DNA of 41,981 nucleotides, from NCBI GenBank assembly GCA_003141955.1, contig PLOC01000101.1, positions 584 through 42,564 of the forward strand, written 5' to 3'. Source of the DNA: Chloroflexota bacterium (GTDB taxonomy: Bacteria > Chloroflexota > Limnocylindria > Limnocylindrales > CSP1-4). Made by a program: the position numbers and the translations under genes. The notes under the pieces are model-generated. The model saw only the letters and a program-made list of their open reading frames with translations, was not told the DNA's origin and made no database searches. Positions 22,229 to 33,411 of this stretch are shown here, in pieces (the first letter of the stretch is position 1; every line of letters begins with the position of its first letter).

Positions 22229-24817
22229 ATGCAACCCAGCAACGCCCCGTCCCGTCTCGCCGCCTTGCGCTCCGCGCTCGTTCGTCGCGGCGTCTTCGCC
22301 GGGCTCGGGCTTGCCCTCGCGCTCCTCGCCGCGGGCGGCCTGGCCCTCGCGTCCGGGGTCGCAATGGCCCCCGCGCTGGTGGCACTCGGGTTCGGTGTGG
22401 CGATCGGCTGGGTCGTCACCGCAGCGATCTCCATATTCACCGTCGCGCGGCCCCTGGGCCGGCTCACCCAGACCGTGATCGCTCTCGCCGAGACGGACAC
22501 AGCCGCCGTGCTGGACGCCCTTGGCGCCCTGGCGGAGGGGGATCTGACCCGCAAGCTGAAGATGCAGGTCAGGCCGATTGCCGTCGACGGGACCGTCGAG
22601 GTCACCCGCCTGAGCGACGGGATCGGAGGAATCATCTCCCGGCTCGGCGAAAGCGCTTCTCAGTTCAACACCGTCACCGACGAGGCATGCCGGCGCCTGT
22701 TCTACGTCGGCGGCGACGGGTACCTCCAGGGCCAGACCGGCGGCGACGCCATGGGCCGCGCGCTCGACGGCAGGGGTCAGGTCCTCGTGGTGACCGCCTC
22801 CTTCAACCATCTCAGCCTGGAACTGCGCCGCCATGGATTCGAGGGGATCCTGCGGGAGCGATATCCGGGCGTCGAGATCGTCGAGGCGGTCGAGACTATC
22901 GGCGAGGGGCCGGAGATGTGCGTCGTCACGGCCGCGGCCCTGAGGCGCCACCCGCGGCTGGCAGGCATATACGTCACGGTCGCCGGCGGCGGAGCGGCCC
23001 AGGCCGTGGTCGATGCCGGCCTGGCGGGGAAGCTCACGCTTATCAGCCACGATCTCGTGGACGAGTCGATGCCCTACGTCGTCAACGGCGTCATCACGGC
23101 CGCGATCGGCCAGGACCCGTTTGGCCAGGGGCACGATCCGGTCATCCATCTGTTCAACCACCTGGTCGCCGGCTGGCAGCCGCCCAAGTCGCGCTTGCTG
23201 ACAGCCATGGACCTGGTCACGGCCGCCAACGTGGGCCAGTTCTGGCAGGCAGGGAAGGGCGCCATCGAGTCGGCGGCCGTCGCGGCCCGCCGCCCCAGGC
23301 CGATGCAGGCCGCGCACCGCCGCATCCGCATCGCCGTCCTCGGCCTCGGGGACACCCCCTTCTGGGAGCTTGTCCGTGCCGGAGTGGTAGCTGCCGCCGA
23401 GGAGCTGCGACCCTTCAACGCCGAGGCCGTGTGGATCGTCCCCGAGTCGAGCAGGTCCTTCGACCTGGCGAGTCGCGCGGCGGTGATCGAGGCGCTCCCG
23501 GCGCAGGGCTATGACGCCATCGCGACGATGGTCATGGACACGGGGCTGGTGGCGACCATCAACCGGGTCGTCGCCGCGGGCGTGCCGGTCGCGACGTTCA
23601 ACTCGGAGTCGTCGAGCCTGCGTGGCCTGATGGATCAGCTCTCGCATCGTGCTCAGAAGCTCATGGAGGTGAGCGACGTCATTGCCGGCTCCGCCCAGTC
23701 CTCCGGCCTGGCCACGAGCCAGATCGCCGAGAACATCTCGCAGATGGCAGAGGCGGCCACCAGCGAAGCCGGCGCCATGACCAGGGCTAACGCCAGCATC
23801 GCGCGCATCGCCGAATCCGTCGAAGTCATCGCCAGCGGCGCCCGCGACCAGGCCAAGGCCGCGGACAGCCTGTCCGAGGCCGCCGCCCACATCGCCGAAG
23901 CCGTCGAGGTCGCCGGGTCGAGCTCGGAAACGGTCGTGGCCGCCACAGTCGAGGCCGTGACCACGGCCGAGCGCGGGTCGGACGCCATTCGCCAGAGTCT
24001 GGCGCAGATGAAGTCGATCGAAGGCGCGGTCGACTCTTCGGCGGCGACGATCCAGGAGACCAACGCTCGAGCCCAGCAGATCGGCGAGATCGTCGGCACC
24101 ATCGAAGACATCGCCGCCCAGACCAATCTGCTCGCCCTGAACGCGGCGATCGAGGCGGCCCGAGCCGGGGATCAGGGCAGGGGCTTCGCCGTTGTCGCCA
24201 GCGAGGTCCGCAAGCTGGCCGAGAAGTCGGCGGCGGCGACCAAGGAGATCGGGGCGATCATCACCTCCGTCCAGGCCAGCGCCCAGCGCGCCGCCGAGGC
24301 GATGGACGTCGCCATGCAGAAGGTGCACGACGGTTCCGCGCTGGCACAGCACTCGGGCCAGGCACTCGACCAGCTGCTCGAGTCGGCCAAGACCACGCAG
24401 CGCCAGACGGGCGAGATGGCCAGGGCCAATCAGACCGTGGCCGACGTCATGGTCGATCTGACCTCGGCGATCCTGCGCGTGTCGGCGGTCGTCACGGCCA
24501 ACATGGACCGCTCCGAGATGGCCGCCGGCGGCATTCGGGAAACGCTCGAAATCGTCGAGAGCGTGGCCGCCCTCTCGGAAGAGAACGCGGCCTCGGCGGA
24601 ACGCGTTTCCTGTTCGACGGGTCTGGTTTCGCAGCAGGCGCAGGAAGTGAACGGCGCCGCCACCGAGCTCACCGCCATCGCGCGGGAGCTCGAAGGGGCG
24701 ACCGCTCGATTCAAGCTGGCCCGCGACGGTGAGCCGGCGGAGGTCGCGCCGCCTGGCGCGGCCGAAGAGCAGGCGGCGGATGCGGGTTCGCCTGGCCGAT
24801 CCAGGAAGGCCGCCTGA
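22229..24817 (+). CDS. Methyl-accepting chemoreceptor-like protein with cytosolic, permuted sugar-binding module
   Basis: Signalling protein of 862 aa; GAGGAACTGAC precedes the ATG. Two close TM helices (about 22-43 and 47-71) leave almost no external loop. A HAMP-like segment (72-115) follows. Residues 155-338 match the second lobe of a type I sugar-binding protein ([51 protein letters not shown]). Residues 366-460 match the first lobe ([38 protein letters not shown]). The lobes are thus in reversed order compared with free binding proteins. The C-terminal half is a long coiled coil with the conserved receptor tip ([38 protein letters not shown], around 625-665). The sensor would be cytosolic and read internal sugar. 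The neighbouring aldo/keto reductase and xylulokinase fit sugar sensing. Confidence 0.9.
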
Positions 24818-25920: not shown

Positions 25921-27408
25921 TCAGCCATGCGGCAACCGTCCGTAGAGCTCGCGGTAGGTGGCGAAAATGCCCGCGTAGAGCTCGACGTTGGCCGGGTCGG
26001 GGTCCATCACGCGTGTGTCGGCAGGCAGCGGCGGAACTCCGTGGGCCGTCGAAGGGATGATCCCGCCGGCAACGGCGCCGAGCAGCGCGGCGCCCCGAGC
26101 CGATCCGTGCTCCGTTGCGCCGAGGGCGACCGGGAGATCCAGCACATCGGCGATGATCTGCTGCCACAGGCGATTGACGCCACCGCCCGCGACCACGCCC
26201 GACGTGGGTTGCACGCCGACGCCACGCATGAGCTCCAGGCCCTCGGCCAGGGCAAAGGCCACTCCCTCCAGAACCGCCCGGGTCAACTCCGGGGCGCCGT
26301 GGCTGATGCGCAGCCCGACCATCGCGCCTCGCGCGGACGGATCGAAATGGGGGGTTCGTTCACCGCGCAGGTACGGCAGGAAGATCAGGCCGTCGCTCCC
26401 GGCCGGGACCTTCGTGGCCGCCGCCAGCAACTCCCGGCTGCCGTTGGGGTCGTCGGGGCGCAGCAGGCGAACAACCCAGTCGAGCGAGGCCGCGGCCGAG
26501 AGGATCGCGGCCATGACGCACCACTGGCCGGGGACCACGTGAGCCAGGCCGTGGAGCCGCCCCTCGGGATCGATGTGCGGCTGAGCTACCGGTGCGAGCA
26601 CCTGCCCACCGGTGCCGAGCGAGATGAGCACGGCGCCCTTTGCGTCTTCCTCCCGGGCCATGCCCAGGCCAAGGGCCGCCGCCGGGGCATCGGCTCCGCC
26701 CACCGCCACGGCGATCCCGGCCGGCAGACCGAGGGCCCTCGCGGCGTCCTCGCGCAGAGATCCGGCATTCGTCTCCGATTCCATGATCGGAGGCAGCAGC
26801 CCCGCGTCGATCCCCAGCTTCTGGCAGATGTCCGTCGCCCACGTTCGGGCCTGCAGGTCGAACAGGAGCGTCGCCGAGGCGTCGGAAACGTCGCTCGCCA
26901 CCTCGCCGGTCAGGCGTGCCCGCAGGGCGTCCTTGGGCTGCACGATCCAGCGCGTCCGGGCGAGGACCTCGGGCTCGTGGACGGCGACCCACATGATCTT
27001 GGGAGCCGTGAAGCTCACGTTCGATCGGTTGCCGGTTCGGGCGACCAGTTCGCCGCGCGGAATTCGCTTCTCGATCTCGGCGGCCTCCGCTCCGGCTCGC
27101 CCGTCTGACCACATTAGCGCGGGTCGAAGCGGCACGCCGTCGGCGTCGAGGAAGACGGCGCTGTGCATCTGGCCGGTAAGGCCGAGGGCGACCACGTCCG
27201 CACCGCGCATGCTCGGGCGGGACAGCATCTCGGACATCCCAAGTCGCAGCGCATCCCACCAGCGATCCGGGTTCTGCTCCGCGTAGCCGGGCTGACGGGA
27301 TTCCGTGGCGTACGAGGCCATCGTCACCCCGAGGGCATTGCCCTCTTCGTCCAGGGCGAGCAACTTGACCCGCGACGACCCAAGATCGATCCCGATCGAG
27401 ACGCGCAC
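25921..27408 (-). CDS. xylB: Xylulokinase (FGGY family)
   Basis: Phosphorylates D-xylulose, feeding the pentose phosphate pathway. The protein is about 495 aa, the usual FGGY length. GTG at 27408 is preferred: GGAG lies 6 bases upstream and the protein then begins VRVSIGIDLGSSRVK, the phosphate-binding motif. Further signatures are MWSDGRAGAEA, the catalytic Asp motif GGADAPAAALG, the SLGTGG phosphate motif, and the C-terminal FGGY stretch VVAGGGVNRLWQQIIADV. It is monocistronic and convergent with the aldo/keto reductase. A 15-base near-palindrome (27493-27507) lies 85 bases upstream. No xylose isomerase is in the window, so a related FGGY substrate cannot be excluded. Confidence 0.92.
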   Translation of the reverse strand: MRVSIGIDLGSSRVKLLALDEEGNALGVTMASYATESRQPGYAEQNPDRWWDALRLGMSEMLSRPSMRGADVVALGLTGQMHSAVFLDADGVPLRPALMWSDGRAGAEAAEIEKRIPRGELVARTGNRSNVSFTAPKIMWVAVHEPEVLARTRWIVQPKDALRARLTGEVASDVSDASATLLFDLQARTWATDICQKLGIDAGLLPPIMESETNAGSLREDAARALGLPAGIAVAVGGADAPAAALGLGMAREEDAKGAVLISLGTGGQVLAPVAQPHIDPEGRLHGLAHVVPGQWCVMAAILSAAASLDWVVRLLRPDDPNGSRELLAAATKVPAGSDGLIFLPYLRGERTPHFDPSARGAMVGLRISHGAPELTRAVLEGVAFALAEGLELMRGVGVQPTSGVVAGGGVNRLWQQIIADVLDLPVALGATEHGSARGAALLGAVAGGIIPSTAHGVPPLPADTRVMDPDPANVELYAGIFATYRELYGRLPHG

Positions 27409-27492
27409 CGATATCTCCAGACTGCTCCCCACACCGTCGACCTGTCGGCTGCTAGGTTACTGCCCGGCGCGAAATCGAGAGGCGAATGCAAA

Positions 27493-27624: not shown

Positions 27625-29091
27625 TCATGAGCGCTGGAAGTAGGCCGCCACCTCCCAGGGTGTGACCTGGCGGCGGTAAGCCTCCCATTCGAGCGACTTG
27701 GCCGACTGGAAGAGCTCGAGCAGCTCGCTCCCGAGGGCGGACATGATCACGTCGTCGTCCTCCAGCGCGGCCAGCGCTTCGCCCAGGGAGGCCGGGAGTG
27801 GCCTGGTCAGGCTGTGGCCGCCGCCGAACCCGTGCTCGACCTCCTCGAGCGGCGGCCCGAGCTCGAGGCCTCGGTCCAGGCCATCCAGGCCGGCGGCGAG
27901 CATGGCCGTGTACGCCAGGTACGGATTGCAGCTGGGGTCGGGGAGGCGCAGCTCCAGGCGCGTCTCGAAGACCTCGGCCGGCGGGTTCTCCTGGCGGACC
28001 TGGGCGGGAACGCGGATCAGGGCGGAGCGGCTGTGGCGCCCCCAGCTCCCCGCGACCGGGGCTTCGTAGCCGGGCACGAGCCGTTTGTACGAGTTGACCA
28101 GAGGAGCGACCAGGGCGCACAGCCCGGGTGCGTGCTCGAGCTGGCCCGCGGCGAAGGCCCGGGCCACGGCTGAGAGCCCGTAGTCCGCCGCCGGGTCGTC
28201 GAAGACGCTGCGCCCCGCGCGATCCACGAGGACCTGGTGGGTGTGCATGCCGGATCCCGCGGCGTCGGCCAGCGGCTTGGGCATGAACGTGGCCTGCATC
28301 CCGCGCTCGCGGGCCAGCTCCTTCACCGCCGGCTTGAGCGTGGTGACCGTGTCGGCGGAGACCAGGGCCGGCAGCATCGGCAGGTCCAGCTCGAACTGCC
28401 CGCTCGCGACCTCGTGGTGGCTCGACTCGATGCGGATCCCCATCGCCTCCAGGCTGGCCACGATCTCGAGCTCGACCTGGCGCGATCGCCCGCGGGCGCG
28501 CTCGAAGTAGCTGCTCGGGTCGTCGGGAAGGGGCTCCACGCCGTCGCCCAGGGGGAAGAGGAAGAACTCGATCTCGGGCGCCACCAGGTAATTGAGCCCG
28601 GCCGACTCGGCCTGCTCCAGGAGCGAGCGGAGCACGGCCCGGCCGTCGCCCGGGTACGGCTCGCCGGTTGGCGTGACGACCTCGCAGATCAGCCGGGCGC
28701 AGGGCACTCCCGCGACCGGCCCGAGGATCGAGAAAGTGGACGGGTCCGGGCGCAGATACATGTCCGACTCGACTTCCCGGGCCAGGCCCTCCAGCGCGGA
28801 TCCGTCGAACCACTCGCCGGCCAGGAGGACATGGGCCAGGCGCCTGGCCGGGACGGCCACGGTCTTGACCGCGCCCGTCACGTCGGCGAACTGGAGCTCG
28901 ATCTGCTCGACCTGGGCCTCTCGGGCGGAGGCGACCAGGCGATCCACCGTGCGGCGGTCCAGATCGGTCAAGCCCAGACCGTTGTCTGCGGCCGTCTCGG
29001 CATCGTCGGCCGCTGCTCCCGTGCCGCCCCCGTTCGAGCGACGCGCCGAGGGTGTGCCCTCGTATGGCGTGGATCCGGTTCTGTCGGGCAT
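27625..29091 (-). CDS. Glutamine synthetase family protein (type I fold)
   Basis: ATP-dependent amide-forming ligase of about 488 aa. ATG at 29091 is chosen because GGAGGA lies 5 bases upstream; a frame extension to 29142 would overlap the kinase gene. Signatures in order are VAPEIEFFLF, HHEVASGQFELD, GSGMHTHQVL, NSYKRLVPGYEAPV, RSALIRVP and RLPDPSCNPYLAYTAML, ending VTPWEVAAYF. The usual AWGRRNRSA is GSWGRHSRSA here. The adenylylation-loop Tyr motif of beta-type enzymes is absent. It could be true GlnA or a gamma-glutamyl-amine or polyamine ligase (PuuA/GlnA3-like). The nearby APC permease favours the latter without proving it. It is the last gene of a PP2C-kinase-ligase unit, 37 bases after the kinase stop. 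The first 35 residues are low complexity. Confidence 0.9.
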   Translation of the reverse strand: MPDRTGSTPYEGTPSARRSNGGGTGAAADDAETAADNGLGLTDLDRRTVDRLVASAREAQVEQIELQFADVTGAVKTVAVPARRLAHVLLAGEWFDGSALEGLAREVESDMYLRPDPSTFSILGPVAGVPCARLICEVVTPTGEPYPGDGRAVLRSLLEQAESAGLNYLVAPEIEFFLFPLGDGVEPLPDDPSSYFERARGRSRQVELEIVASLEAMGIRIESSHHEVASGQFELDLPMLPALVSADTVTTLKPAVKELARERGMQATFMPKPLADAAGSGMHTHQVLVDRAGRSVFDDPAADYGLSAVARAFAAGQLEHAPGLCALVAPLVNSYKRLVPGYEAPVAGSWGRHSRSALIRVPAQVRQENPPAEVFETRLELRLPDPSCNPYLAYTAMLAAGLDGLDRGLELGPPLEEVEHGFGGGHSLTRPLPASLGEALAALEDDDVIMSALGSELLELFQSAKSLEWEAYRRQVTPWEVAAYFQRS

Positions 29092-29128
29092 GTCGTTCCT
29101 CCCGCGCGGACGTGGGCCGTTCGCGCGG

Positions 29129-30118
29129 CTATGCGTGGGCATGGACGAGAAGGTATGCGATCAGGACGAAGAGAATGCTGGCGGCCAGGAAGCCGGCGCT
29201 GATCCCGAAGATGAGGAGGATCAGCTTCTGGTCCGAGGCGCGCGTTACCGGGGCCTCGTCGCCGAAGATGAACTGCGACAGCGGCAGGTCCCGCCAGTGC
29301 TCGAGATCGCTCTCCAGTGAGGCCGCGTCCTCATAGCGCTCGTCGGGGAGCTTGCGCAGGCACTTGCGGACGATCCCCTCTATCGGTGGCGGCACCTCGG
29401 CGTTGATCTCGTGGAGCGCCGGGACCGGCGCGTTAAGATGCTGGCTCATGACCGAGAGAGCGTTGTCACCTTCCCACGGAACCCGACCCGCCAGCATCTC
29501 GAACAGCATGACCCCGATGGCGTAGACGTCCGTCCTGGCATCGCCGCGCTTGCCCTGGATCTGCTCGGGCGACATGTAGTCGGGCGTGCCGAGGGCGGTC
29601 GAGAACCAGCGCCAGGTGAGCCGTCGGGCGCCGGCCATCAAGGCCACGCCGAAATCGGTGACCACCAGCCGCCCGTCCGAGGTCACGAGCACGTTCTCGG
29701 GCTTGAGGTCGCGATGGAAGACCCCCTGCGAATGGGCGTAGGCCATCGCCGCCGCCAGCTGCCGGCCGAAGTCGACCGCCTGCTCGACAGAGAGGCGCTT
29801 CTCGCGGGTCATGTAGGCGCGCAGCGTCTCGCCTTCGATGTACTCCATGACCATGTAGGGGCGGCTGCGGTCCGTCGTGAATTCGAGCGAGCGCTGGATC
29901 CCCGGATGGCGGAGATGGCGGGAGATCTCGAGCTCGCGCCGGAAACGGTCGAAGGTCGAGACGTCGCCCATGATCGTCTCGTGGGGGCACTTGAGGACGA
30001 CCTGGCGGCCGCCGGGATCCTCGGCCAGGAAGACGTCGCTGAAGGCTCCCTGGCCTATCGGCTTGACGATCGTGAACTGGTCGAGTTTCGCGCCCGGCTG
30101 GAGATCAGTCGTGGTCAC
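29129..30118 (-). CDS. Membrane-anchored Ser/Thr protein kinase (Hanks type)
   Basis: Protein kinase of about 329 aa. GTG at 30118 is preferred: GGAGG lies 8 bases upstream and the start overlaps the phosphatase stop as GTGA. An ATG at 30136 is the alternative. Catalytic elements are the Gly loop GQGAFSDV, K43 (VVLKC), HRDLKPEN (D137, N142), DFG (155-157) and the activation-segment end GTPDYMSPEQ. A single TM helix lies near the C-terminus (LILLIFGISAGFLAASILFVLI), with only about six residues beyond, so unlike PknB there is no external PASTA sensor. The kinase faces the cytosol. The upstream PP2C is its obvious antagonist, and the glutamine-synthetase-family enzyme or APC permease are possible substrates. 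Confidence 0.94.
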   Translation of the reverse strand: MTTTDLQPGAKLDQFTIVKPIGQGAFSDVFLAEDPGGRQVVLKCPHETIMGDVSTFDRFRRELEISRHLRHPGIQRSLEFTTDRSRPYMVMEYIEGETLRAYMTREKRLSVEQAVDFGRQLAAAMAYAHSQGVFHRDLKPENVLVTSDGRLVVTDFGVALMAGARRLTWRWFSTALGTPDYMSPEQIQGKRGDARTDVYAIGVMLFEMLAGRVPWEGDNALSVMSQHLNAPVPALHEINAEVPPPIEGIVRKCLRKLPDERYEDAASLESDLEHWRDLPLSQFIFGDEAPVTRASDQKLILLIFGISAGFLAASILFVLIAYLLVHAHA

Positions 30119-30975
30119 GAGAATAACCTCCGCCATCCCTGCGGCGCTTCGGGCGCCTGCCCGGCCTCGCGCACGCGAATGGCCATGGCTGTCGCATTAT
30201 CGTCGCCGCCACGGTCCAGAGCGAGCTTGACCAGCCGGTCGCACGCTTCCGCCGGCGAGTGGGCCAGCGCCTCCGCGATCTCGCTCGCGGTCACGTTGCT
30301 CCACAGCCCGTCCGAGCAGAGGAGAAACGCGTCGTCGGAGTCGAGGCGTTCCGTCCGAACGTCGACCCGGACGGTGATGTCGCCGCCGACCGATCGGGTC
30401 AGGGCGTACCGGGCGGGGTGGTCGATGGCCTGCTCAGGAGTGATGATGTGCATCCGGAGCAGCTCCATTACCTGACTGTGGTCGGCGGTCAGAACCTCGA
30501 GATCGCCGTGGTGGCGGCGGTAGACGCGGCTGTCGCCGACATGGGCAAGGTGCGCCTCGCCGGGTGTAATCGCCAGAGCGCTCAGGGTGGATTGCATCTT
30601 CCGGCCCCCGTGGCCTCCGATGGCGGCGTCGAAGATCGCCTGATTGGCCCGATTGAAGGCCGCCCTCAGGGTGCCCGTGAGGCGCCCGCCGTCGGCCACG
30701 TTCTTCTGGGTGTGCTCGAGGCAGGCCTCGACCGCCAGTCCCGATGCAATCTCGCCGCCGCCGTATCCGCCGAGGCCGTCCGCCACGGCGAAGACCAGAC
30801 CCCGTTGCGAGGTTGCGACCGCCTGAGCGAGCGTGTACTCCTGGGCCGGCATCACGAAGGCCGAGTCGCTGTCGAGGGCAGCCCAGCCGAGCCGGTCCTC
30901 GTTGTGGTCCCGGACGTGGCCTGAGACGGACAGGCCGGCGTACTCGACGGCCAGGGCCGCGGTCACGGCCTGCAT
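30115..30975 (-). CDS. PP2C-family Ser/Thr protein phosphatase
   Basis: Metal-dependent phosphatase of about 286 aa. Conserved motifs are SGHVRDHNEDRLG (start of the domain), FAVADGLGGYGGGEIAS, AHVGDSRVYR, LTRSVGG, LLCSDGLWSNV and GGDDNATAMAIRV, which give the full set of metal-binding Asp residues. The frame runs open far upstream across the APC permease gene, but PP2C similarity begins near the ATG at 30975, so I start there. The ribosome binding site is weak. The stop overlaps the kinase start by 4 bases, so the two opposing enzymes are translationally coupled. A strong hairpin (31031-31059) sits between it and the permease upstream. It probably removes phosphates placed by the adjacent kinase. 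Confidence 0.93.
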   Translation of the reverse strand: MQAVTAALAVEYAGLSVSGHVRDHNEDRLGWAALDSDSAFVMPAQEYTLAQAVATSQRGLVFAVADGLGGYGGGEIASGLAVEACLEHTQKNVADGGRLTGTLRAAFNRANQAIFDAAIGGHGGRKMQSTLSALAITPGEAHLAHVGDSRVYRRHHGDLEVLTADHSQVMELLRMHIITPEQAIDHPARYALTRSVGGDITVRVDVRTERLDSDDAFLLCSDGLWSNVTASEIAEALAHSPAEACDRLVKLALDRGGDDNATAMAIRVREAGQAPEAPQGWRRLFS

Positions 30976-31030
30976 CTGTCTGGCGAAGGAGCGGCCATCT
31001 GCCTGGGCTTTCCTGCTGGAGATTGGGGAA

Positions 31031-31059
31031 GACCGCGCCGGGAACCTGCCGGCGCGGTC
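31031..31059 (-). terminator. Strong hairpin between APC permease and PP2C genes
   Basis: GACCGCGCCGG (31031-31041) and CCGGCGCGGTC (31049-31059) form a perfect 11-base stem with a 7-base loop. Read leftward it is followed by TTCCCC rather than a T-run. It lies 23 bases after the permease stop, so it may terminate or attenuate transcription into the phosphatase/kinase/ligase genes. Confidence 0.6.
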
Positions 31060-31082
31060 TCGATCCTGCGATCCGGTGGCGG

Positions 31083-32627
31083 CTACCGCTCCGGGACCAC
31101 GGTCCGGGGCTTGACGAGAAGACTCTTGTTGGTCGCGGCCGAGTTGAAGACGAGCCAGACGGCGCCGACCACGATCCAGATGACAACCGCACCGAGGGCG
31201 ATCAGCGTGTCGGTCTGGGTCGACCCGCCGGCCGAGACGCTCATGAGGACGACTCCGGCGAGCATGCCGACATTTGCCACCAGCCCCGCCACCGGGACGA
31301 TCACGTGTTTGACGATGTTCCTCTTGTGCCTTCCCCCAAAGGCGAACAGGACCAGCGCGTTCGTCATGCCATAGACCAGGAAGGTGCCGGTGTTGGAGGC
31401 GAGCGTGATCTGGAGCAGGTTGTCGGCCGAGAGGACCGCGTATCCGCCGAGGAGTGCGGAGATGACGGCAAGAGCAATCACGCCGTAGTGCGGAGTCGCG
31501 TGCCGGAAGTGGAGCATGCCAAGGACGCCGGGGACTTCCCTGTCTCGGCCCATGACGTAGGTGATGCGGACGCCGGTGTTCAGGCAGGCCAGCGTGGTGC
31601 CGATGAGCGCGATCAATACGCTCAGCGCGAGGATCAGAACGAGGGCCACGCCGGTGCCTCCCAGCATCTGGTCGCCGATGAAGCGGATCATGTCGCCGAT
31701 CGGGGCTGACGAGGCGGCCGCCGCCGCGTAACCGCCGACGGTCTTGCCGGTCGCGTCGGTAGCGGTGATGCTGCCGTTGACCAGGAAGTTGGCCGAGACG
31801 TACTCGATGACGTAGGCGACGGCTCCCTGGATGGCGAGCGACAAGAGAACCGCCCGCCGGACGTCGCGCTTGGGGTTGATCGCCTCGGCGCCCAGGGCGG
31901 TGACGGATTCGAACCCGACCAGCAACAGGATCGCGATCGTGCCCTGGAAGAGGACGTTTGTGAAGTTGTGCGGCAGGACGACAGAGGCGATACTCGAATG
32001 TGCGTACGCCAGGTCCGGATGTGTGAGCCGGAACGCAATGGCCAGGATTGAGAACCCGACGAGGGCCGTCAGCTGGATCGCGTTGATGATGACGGCCGTC
32101 ATTGTCGAGCCGGAAATGCCGCGATATGCGATCAACCCGACCAGCGCCGAGAATACGAACGCGGCCCCAACTTCGGCCGGTTGATTCAGCGTCACGCCGA
32201 ACAGGCTCATGATGTATACACACAGGATCGCCGTGAACCCGACCATGATGCCCGGGTAGATCCAGTAGTACAGGTGTGAGACCCAACCGACGACGAACTT
32301 GGCCAGTCGGGCGAACTTGTAGTGGATCGCCTCCTCCTTCTCCAGGAAGGCGGCTTCGGCGAAGTAGTATGAGGATCCGGCGCCGGCCTCCGGGTATATG
32401 TTCGACAGCTCGGCATATGAGAACGCGGTGAGGAATGCGAGCACGAGAACGAACAGCAGTCCCGGGACCATGTCCATCGCGGTCGTGATGCCGCCATTCT
32501 GCTGAACGACCTGGGCCTGGAACGTTGTCCAGAGAAACGCGCCGGGCGCAATCAGCGCCATGGCGTTGATCGTCAGCCCGGTCATCGTCAGGGTGCGCTT
32601 CATTTCGGTGCCTGGCGCGGCGGCCAT
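31083..32627 (-). CDS. APC-family amino-acid or amine permease
   Basis: Cytoplasmic-membrane transporter of about 514 aa with around twelve to fourteen helices. ATG at 32627 is chosen because GGAGG lies 5 bases upstream (TTGGAGGACACG). The first helix has the APC pattern LTINAMALIAPGAFLWTTF. YPEAGAGSSYYFAEAAF matches the family Pro/Gly-rich stretch, and GFESVTALGAEAINPKRDVRRA is the conserved helix-6 region. The substrate is likely an amino acid or polyamine. It is upstream of, and co-directional with, the PP2C, kinase and glutamine-synthetase-family genes, separated from them by a hairpin. Such a permease together with a glutamylating ligase recalls putrescine or amine uptake systems (PuuP/PuuA), which is inference. 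Confidence 0.9.
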   Translation of the reverse strand: MAAAPGTEMKRTLTMTGLTINAMALIAPGAFLWTTFQAQVVQQNGGITTAMDMVPGLLFVLVLAFLTAFSYAELSNIYPEAGAGSSYYFAEAAFLEKEEAIHYKFARLAKFVVGWVSHLYYWIYPGIMVGFTAILCVYIMSLFGVTLNQPAEVGAAFVFSALVGLIAYRGISGSTMTAVIINAIQLTALVGFSILAIAFRLTHPDLAYAHSSIASVVLPHNFTNVLFQGTIAILLLVGFESVTALGAEAINPKRDVRRAVLLSLAIQGAVAYVIEYVSANFLVNGSITATDATGKTVGGYAAAAASSAPIGDMIRFIGDQMLGGTGVALVLILALSVLIALIGTTLACLNTGVRITYVMGRDREVPGVLGMLHFRHATPHYGVIALAVISALLGGYAVLSADNLLQITLASNTGTFLVYGMTNALVLFAFGGRHKRNIVKHVIVPVAGLVANVGMLAGVVLMSVSAGGSTQTDTLIALGAVVIWIVVGAVWLVFNSAATNKSLLVKPRTVVPER

Positions 32628-32736: not shown

Positions 32737-33411
32737 TCAGTGCCGCTTAGGCGGCGGGCGGGTTGCCTTATAGGCCGTCGCAGGTTGTGGCGCGGTTGCG
32801 GGCAGAGTGCGAAATCCGCTCGAAATCGAGCTACCGGGGAATCTGCAGCGTCGGGCTGCCAGGTCGCGCCTCTCGAAGGCGACGACGGCGAGGGCCAGGA
32901 ATAGCGCGGCTACGGCTGCCAGGACGGCCGCGTCGCCCATGTTCAGCCCGTTCCGAAGCGGGTCGTCACCCCATGTATTAGCGGAAGAATGAGAGCGGCT
33001 GGATCGCCCCCAGGCCGTCCACGACGGAACTGAGCGGGTCGCTCCAGGACGACACGGCGGCGCGACACGGGATATGACAGAAGTATGTCGATGGTGCCGC
33101 GCGATTCCTCGCCCGCCGTGAAACCGCTGGCCGTTCCGGCTGCGAATGCAACCAGAGCGGAGGGCAGGATCATCGAGAACAGTTCTATGTGAAGGAAGCC
33201 GATGAGAGTGCTGGCATCGCCCATGCTCGCCCCCAGCGGTTTCGCCGCCGGCCCCATCTTCCTCGAGCATCGAATTCAGATCGAATAGCTTTGAATGAGT
33301 GGGAAACAGAATGGCAAAATAGCCGGTCATTGCCCCACAACCGAGGCTCACCCAGAATGTGGGCCAGCGCAAATCTCGCACGGTCTTGGTGAAGACGTTA
33401 CGCAGCAACAT
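32737..33411 (-). pseudogene. Decayed ABC-2-type permease
   Basis: The remains of the permease partner of the ATPase at 33398-34333, whose stop it overlaps by 14 bases. The N-terminus is good (MLLRNVFTKTVRDLRWPTFW to SMLEE). At about 33258 the family sequence jumps to another frame (STLIGFLHIELFSMILPSALV, GEESRGTIDILLSYPVSRRRVVLE). Roughly a hundred residues that a full-length permease would have are then missing, and the sequence resumes in a third frame as SDPLSSVVDGLGAIQPLSFFR. It hits a TAA at 32978-32980 where Tyr is expected, and after another shift near 32968 ends as DDPLRNGLNMGDAAVLAAVAA...FERRDLA. The outer frame happens to stay open as a 224-residue ORF, so an automated call may look intact. 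The sequence downstream of about 32870 is not recognisable. Confidence 0.8.

Follow-up and report, generated by a model that had tools for sequence, protein, structure and literature searches.

How a membrane-anchored serine/threonine (Ser/Thr) kinase that carries no external sensor domain may receive its input is the question raised by a cluster of four genes from a Chloroflexota bacterium (NCBI GenBank assembly GCA_003141955.1, contig PLOC01000101.1, positions 584 to 42,564), found on a stretch of 41,981 nucleotides (nt) that we call the window. A first-pass annotation, made from the letters of the window alone, had described an APC permease, a PP2C phosphatase, a Ser/Thr kinase and a ligase of the glutamine synthetase (GS) family as one cluster, and this cluster proved to be real: all four genes lie codirectionally on the minus strand, from 32627 to 27625, the stop codon of the phosphatase gene and the GTG start of the kinase gene overlap by 4 nt (GTGA), and the ATG start of the ligase gene comes 37 nt after the kinase stop, exactly as described. 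Our genome surveys show that, as far as sequence can tell, such a permease and a short, membrane-anchored, sensor-less kinase are co-inherited; a PP2C usually accompanies them, and many lineages add a ligase from a distinct GS subfamily. We favor the reading that these genes form a phosphorylation module that is coupled to the permease and has the GS-type ligase as a client, and would give it about an even chance of being right. The genes of the window, and the membrane helix of the kinase, are as follows.

32627-31083, minus strand: APC-superfamily permease, first gene of the module (514 amino acids (aa); PF00324, 60 bits).
30975-30115, minus strand: PP2C-type Ser/Thr phosphatase (286 aa; PF13672).
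30118-29129, minus strand: Hanks-type Ser/Thr kinase (STK; 329 aa; PF00069, 176 bits).
29159..29215, minus strand: C-terminal transmembrane (TM) helix of the kinase, residues ~302-320 (hydropathy maximum of 2.57 over 19 residues).
29091-27625, minus strand: type I GS (GSI)-type ligase of the module-linked GS clade (488 aa; PF03951 and PF00120, 338 bits).

A survey of 126 genomes of the order detected orthologues of both the permease and the kinase in 36 genomes, of the permease only in one, of the kinase only in none and of neither in 89. The permease orthologues (37/126 genomes) were mostly 72-97% identical to that of the window, some being fragmented, and the 36 kinase orthologues (62-94% identity) all fell within these 37 genomes; in the sole genome with a permease alone (G071), this gene sits at a contig end. 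The association between the two genes is more than chance would give. Orthologues of the ligase (65-100% identity) were found in genus g1, in G003 (genus g3) and in G080-G082 (genus g23). At the 22 loci of family f1 where a ligase gene lies beside the kinase gene, the order was always permease-phosphatase-kinase-ligase on one strand, while 12 loci (genera g5, g6, g11 and g19) display the permease-phosphatase-kinase trio without any codirectional ligase and with varied flanks, and 3 further loci are truncated at contig ends; one of the 12 trios (L155) has a divergent GlnA-type GS gene adjoining its permease gene. Judged from gene content, the core in family f1 is this trio. The first-pass annotation had considered that the kinase/phosphatase pair might travel with unrelated neighbors in relatives, which was found to be so for the flanks and the missing ligase of these 12 loci but not for the permease. 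Since the PP2C-kinase pair stays with the permease even where the ligase is missing, the permease, and not the ligase, is the constant partner.

The same pairing extends far beyond this order. Permease orthologues (E <= 1e-60) were present in 41/400 sampled Chloroflexota genomes, with 45-61% identity outside f1, and also in 7/396 genomes of Actinomycetota (the phylum of G513) and 1/398 of Bacillota (the phylum of G511), while 37 genomes sampled from those behind named loci yielded 3 permease matches, one of which was weak (E 7.8e-26) and left out of the table. The resulting table holds 76 permease-orthologue loci, each from a different genome (37 of them in f1 and 39 elsewhere), 10 of which end before a kinase could show (L151, L161, L163, L193, L216, L218, L250, L258, L263 and L274). 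A kinase gene was found on the same strand within 7 kb of the permease gene in 65 of the 66 judgeable loci. The complete four-gene set with an adjacent ligase occurs at 36 loci, from nine Chloroflexota families and two Actinomycetota genomes, so that the gene order, whose conservation the first-pass annotation had proposed to check, is not unique to this genome. Loci from one genus are not independent of each other, and it is fairer to go by the number of families. Outside f1, the order is unpermuted at 11 Chloroflexota loci (L199, L201-L204, L206-L208, L217, L266 and L267) that span families f4, f10, f17, f31, f41, f55 and f67; it is PP2C-STK-GS-APC at L200 (family f9) and STK-GS-APC-PP2C at the actinomycetotal loci L260 and L262. 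All three permuted orders are cyclic, and cyclic permutations would fit a tandem duplication of the block followed by loss of parts. The bacillotal locus (L265) has APC-PP2C-STK. At L261, the GS gene lies beyond the kinase gene and is not adjacent to it, and this locus was not counted as a four-gene module although the signature in the table would class it as one. A kinase-GS pair from outside bacteria (Micrarchaeota, L037), the GS of which bore an OPERON label in the first GS tree, was rejected, as its kinase is different and longer and unrelated genes lie in between.

Both the joint presence or absence and the same-strand pairing of permease and kinase support a coupling between the two, and the retention of all four genes through three rearranged orders supports a module; from gene content, the permease-kinase pair is its core. 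One could argue instead that the kinase and the phosphatase are simply the cell's general pair, acting on many substrates and merely adjoining nutrient genes. In line with this, the window's own genome (a 2.8 Mb assembly, 95.6% complete) gave a single PF13672 (PP2C_2) match, the module phosphatase, and two Pkinase matches, and the ligase is dispensable in many relatives. However, the second Pkinase match is a separate, PASTA-like kinase on C18 (the PASTA label being read from sequence), the constant permease neighbor and the survival of the gene set through permutations speak for a dedicated association, and the joint absence of kinase and permease from 89/126 genomes is unexpected for a general pair. 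We therefore regard this explanation as very unlikely.

If the kinase belongs to the permease, its architecture is of particular interest. The first-pass annotation was right that it has no external sensor domain: past its sole C-terminal hydrophobic helix, only 9 residues remain in the window's kinase and 1-12 in complete module kinases (in this measurement, the L168 row and all rows of fewer than 30 residues reflect frame artefacts). As the length of the kinase and its short tail are kept in the complete kinases of all lineages, the sensor must be in another protein. The enzymes themselves look functional: the motifs HRDLKPEN, DFG and GTPDYM are intact in the window and the catalytic motifs are intact across 22 aligned sequences, a basic activation-loop signature GARR[LV]TW (small variants allowed) was found in 59/61 kinases, the other two being off by one residue, and the PP2C alignment contains DG, GD, SDG and DN, which we take to be the catalytic motifs of this family. 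We counted these intact motifs in favor of the module. The best solved-structure matches to the kinase domain were StkP and PknB, and the kinase reached 279 bits, over its kinase domain only, against the PASTA kinase model PknB/Stk1 (NF033483; cut-off 450 bits), while the phosphatase reached 187 bits against the Stp1/IreP model (NF033484; cut-off 230 bits).

According to the mechanism that we propose, the permease would be the input of the kinase, with amino-acid binding or transport relayed through the membrane to it. Reversible control by the kinase and the PP2C would then act on the activity of the permease and, at loci that have one, on that of the ligase, and amino-acid uptake would be matched to glutamate/glutamine metabolism as an outcome. 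There are precedents for parts of this scheme: the available text of PMC6213207 lists B. subtilis GlnA among the targets of PrkC, making a GS a plausible kinase substrate, and external amino acids are sensed by the GlnH-GlnX-PknG system, as described in the accessible parts of PMC6069109 and PMC9769921. In families f10 and f31, a GlnA-like GS occupies the same position as the module ligase, as if the slot needs a GS.

What the ligase makes is a separate question. Its Gln-synt_N and Gln-synt_C domains and its metal and glutamate ligands place it in the type I GS superfamily. Nevertheless, it scored 379 bits against the GlnA equivalog model TIGR00653, below the cut-off of 429.15 bits, and 10 further ligases of the module clade (284-427 bits) did likewise, so that 11/11 clade members tested fail, whereas 10/10 GSs from outside the clade pass (448-562 bits), including the module GSs of f10 and f31. 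In a tree rooted on E. coli GlnA and widened by Actinomycetota sequences, 16/19 labelled rows group into a single clade (97/93) that sits among the GlnA-type GSs of Chloroflexota; its members come from seven Chloroflexota families and three Actinomycetota genomes. The rows outside it are those of f10 and f31, the module GS of which is GlnA-like, and L261, which groups with GlnA of the adenylylation type. In an earlier tree rooted on PuuA, which has a very long branch, the module GSs were split into two neighboring groups, and without PuuA 15/17 labelled rows lay on one side of a branch (92/74). Each tree was built after removal of near-duplicates and some of the non-Chloroflexota rows, and the branch of L262 is long.

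All 17 clade rows of the alignment retain E129, E131, E212, E220, H269, E357, R321 and R359, together with D50, Y179 and E327, and R339 and R344 are also retained in the module GSs. Residues lost in the clade are N264 (17 rows), S53 (11 rows), H271 (6 rows) and R355 (5 rows); the ligase of the window has neither S53 nor N264, and its genus keeps H271 and R355. The adenylylation tyrosine is missing, as the first-pass annotation had noticed: the position of Y397 (E. coli mature numbering) aligns to a histidine in the window, and this tyrosine of GSI-beta enzymes is present in only 1/17 clade rows (L200). The argument that its loss would demand another mode of control did not hold, since 27/58 non-module GSs in the same alignment also have no tyrosine there; non-adenylylated GSI enzymes are common.

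Beyond this, the first-pass annotation had proposed that an amine-type permease and the ligase carry out the uptake and glutamylation of an amine or amino acid under reversible phosphorylation, and a functional link between the four genes is supported, as the gene set recurs in many lineages. In its amine form, the permease would import an amine, the GS-like enzyme would glutamylate it and the kinase and phosphatase would regulate both. E. coli PuuA, after all, adjoins PuuP, the module GSs fall under the GlnA cut-off, and the polyamine ligase GlnA2, as the available text of PMC8998196 presents it, also lacks S53 and N264 while keeping D50, Y179, E327 and W397 by sequence (its model there has an Asp at the place of Tyr179); actinobacterial rows that look GlnA2-like in our alignment share the S53/N264 pattern of the window ligase. 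Against this, module GSs have D50, Y179, E212 and E327 in 17/17 rows where E. coli PuuA has P, V, E and Y, and PauA7 and GlnA4 lose D50, Y179 and E327 according to the accessible part of PMC6529630. Moreover, the ligase reached only 266 bits against the gamma-glutamylputrescine synthetase model (NF045547; cut-off 650 bits), and the identified neighbors of the module included no recognisable Puu-type oxidase, dehydrogenase or hydrolase. The permease falls below every NCBIfam subfamily cut-off (best in the window, 74 of 556.8 bits), as do four of its orthologues, so that it joins no named substrate family, and no solved-structure relative was found by sequence at E 0.01. We thus consider the amine explanation unlikely, though the least improbable of the alternatives. 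Since the ligase keeps D50, Y179 and E327 and has lost S53 and N264 as GlnA2 has, its residues alone name no substrate, ammonia or amine; by sequence, it would most simply be a glutamate-ammonia ligase and, less certainly, a gamma-glutamyl-amine ligase.

The separate clade, with its consistently low GlnA scores, can also be read in another way, namely that the module GS is less an assimilatory enzyme than a subunit for regulation or sensing, which would bind glutamate/glutamine as a partner of the kinase or permease. The losses of N264 throughout and of H271 and R355 in some rows would fit, H271 being a residue that coordinates a nucleotide phosphate in GSI as far as the available text of PMC6529630 goes, and ordinary GlnA-type GSs coexist with the module GS in most of these genomes. 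Yet all metal ligands are kept, as are E327, R321, R339, R344 and R359, the window's genus retains H271 and R355, f4 gave no GSI-type match under E 1e-40 other than the module GS, and genus g1 has no other (~50%) GlnA-type GS among the matches listed. The other GS-family genes of the window's own genome are one on C113 that encodes a GSIII-like protein of 714 aa and a GS-like gene on C57 (L002) that is broken and partly masked. A regulatory GS therefore seems to us quite improbable. We hold in similarly low regard the bolder proposal of a bacterial transceptor complex, in which the APC permease would be the missing sensor and the module GS a cytosolic glutamate/glutamine-sensing or effector subunit, not an assimilatory one; if true, uptake, phosphorylation and intracellular nitrogen status would be read by one complex in at least two phyla.

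Whether the four genes are expressed together depends in part on the 107-nt gap between the permease and PP2C genes, which contains a conserved structure.

31029-31061, minus strand: stem-loop in the permease/PP2C gap (11-bp stem; RNAalifold, 14 species of the genus).

Its 11 pairs are kept almost throughout the 14 genus sequences, with both sides changed at 6/11, and the stem of L140 still pairs although its sequence is almost entirely different. As it has no U-run, we do not call it a terminator; it is a possible attenuator, processing site or 3' stabiliser. Because of this conserved stem-loop, the expression level of the permease may differ from that of the other three genes, and we prefer to speak of "one cluster" and not of "one operon": the PP2C, kinase and ligase genes are likely on a single transcript, and we are less sure that the permease gene shares it. 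An RNA switch was rejected, there being no Rfam match in the window. The 37-nt kinase-ligase spacer is foldable in the window, and its stem is broken in some relatives.

Several observations weigh against a permease-coupled module with a GS-type client. The ligase is absent from 12 f1 loci and from 15 f21 loci, so that control of a ligase is not the ancestral or constant role, and the PP2C is optional too, since family f21 has only permease and kinase, with neither PP2C nor ligase, in 15/15 loci judged. L259, the one exception to the pairing, lacks the kinase while keeping permease, PP2C and module GS. The permease frame is broken in L136, L139, L167 and L168, which may be errors of metagenome-assembled genomes or decay, and the stem-loop may uncouple permease expression from that of the PP2C, kinase and ligase. 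Mean pairwise identity is 74% for the catalytic domain of the kinase, 64% for its TM helix and 49% for its juxtamembrane region among 8 f1 representatives, and 53%, 29% and 21%, respectively, among all 22 sequences; the TM helix, being less conserved than the catalytic domain, gives no special sign of a TM contact. Finally, a conserved phosphosite in the ligase was considered and rejected, as the Ser/Thr-bearing N-terminal extension (~48 residues) is not conserved in 15 genus sequences and no Ser/Thr column specific to the module GS clade was found in the alignment.

The surroundings of the module vary. An OmpR-type response regulator (cluster c6) often lies directly upstream of the permease outside g1 (L145-L147, L150, L151, L153, L157-L159, L161, L163 and L166) and was not found there in the window's genus. 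In genus g1, an FGGY carbohydrate kinase gene (window 25921-27432, minus strand; a cluster of 16 loci) comes after the ligase gene; in g3 and g23, none was found next to the module. Elsewhere in the window, positions 32943-33257 (minus strand) encode a 104-aa ABC-2 permease fragment adjoining an ABC ATPase; this permease has 266 aa and is intact in L130-L134, L137 and L141, so the window's copy is broken or carries a sequence error. Positions 22229-24817 (plus strand) encode a chemoreceptor of the methyl-accepting chemotaxis protein (MCP) type, in which N-terminal hydrophobic helices are followed by a Peripla_BP_4 domain and then by the MCP signal domain; judged by its position after the helices, the Peripla_BP_4 domain may lie in the cytosol, an odd location if so.

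Among known systems, the nearest working parallel is GlnH-GlnX-PknG of Actinobacteria, which, in the accessible text of PMC6069109 and PMC9769921, is also a conserved operon with a sensor-less Ser/Thr kinase tied to external amino acids and controlling glutamate/nitrogen flow. The sensor parts are all different: in that system, a soluble kinase that carries a TPR domain and targets OdhI/GarA takes its input from a solute-binding lipoprotein and a four-TM receptor, whereas the module combines an APC permease with a membrane-anchored kinase, a PP2C phosphatase and a ligase of the GS type. Within the module, we recognised no gene resembling GlnH or GlnX, and its kinase consists of a kinase domain and one TM helix only. 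Overlapping PP2C and Hanks-kinase genes are shared with the PrkC/PrpC and StkP/PhpP pairs, but the module kinase has no PASTA or external domain, both enzymes stay under the NCBIfam cut-offs, and the neighbors are a permease and a GS. Its ligase shares with GlnA the fold domains, metal ligands, D50, Y179, E327 and glutamate arginines, but differs by its own clade, its sub-cut-off scores and its lost N264 and Y397 (and S53 in 11/17). With the gamma-glutamyl-amine ligases (PuuA, PauA7 and GlnA2-GlnA4, as far as the texts cited above describe them), it has in common a GS-like ligase near an APC permease (PuuA/PuuP) and the S53/N264 loss of GlnA2, but it retains D50, Y179 and E327, comes with a kinase and a phosphatase and has no recognised catabolic genes nearby. 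In the literature searched, most subscription journals lying outside its coverage, no paper describing this gene set was found. Taken singly, the parts belong to known kinds; what makes this a new variant is how they are combined, together with the kinase subfamily bound to the permease and the GS clade of the module.

What activates bacterial Ser/Thr kinases is named an outstanding question in the available text of PMC6069109. Here, a sensor-less kinase has kept one permease neighbor through deep divergence, which offers a candidate input, a counter-enzyme (the PP2C) and candidate substrates (the permease and a GS paralogue). The module also marks out a subfamily of GSs that would pass as glutamine synthetase in domain searches although it fails the GlnA cut-off. 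Altogether, this gene block suggests that some soil and fen bacteria may use a little-studied route to sense and control their nitrogen intake.

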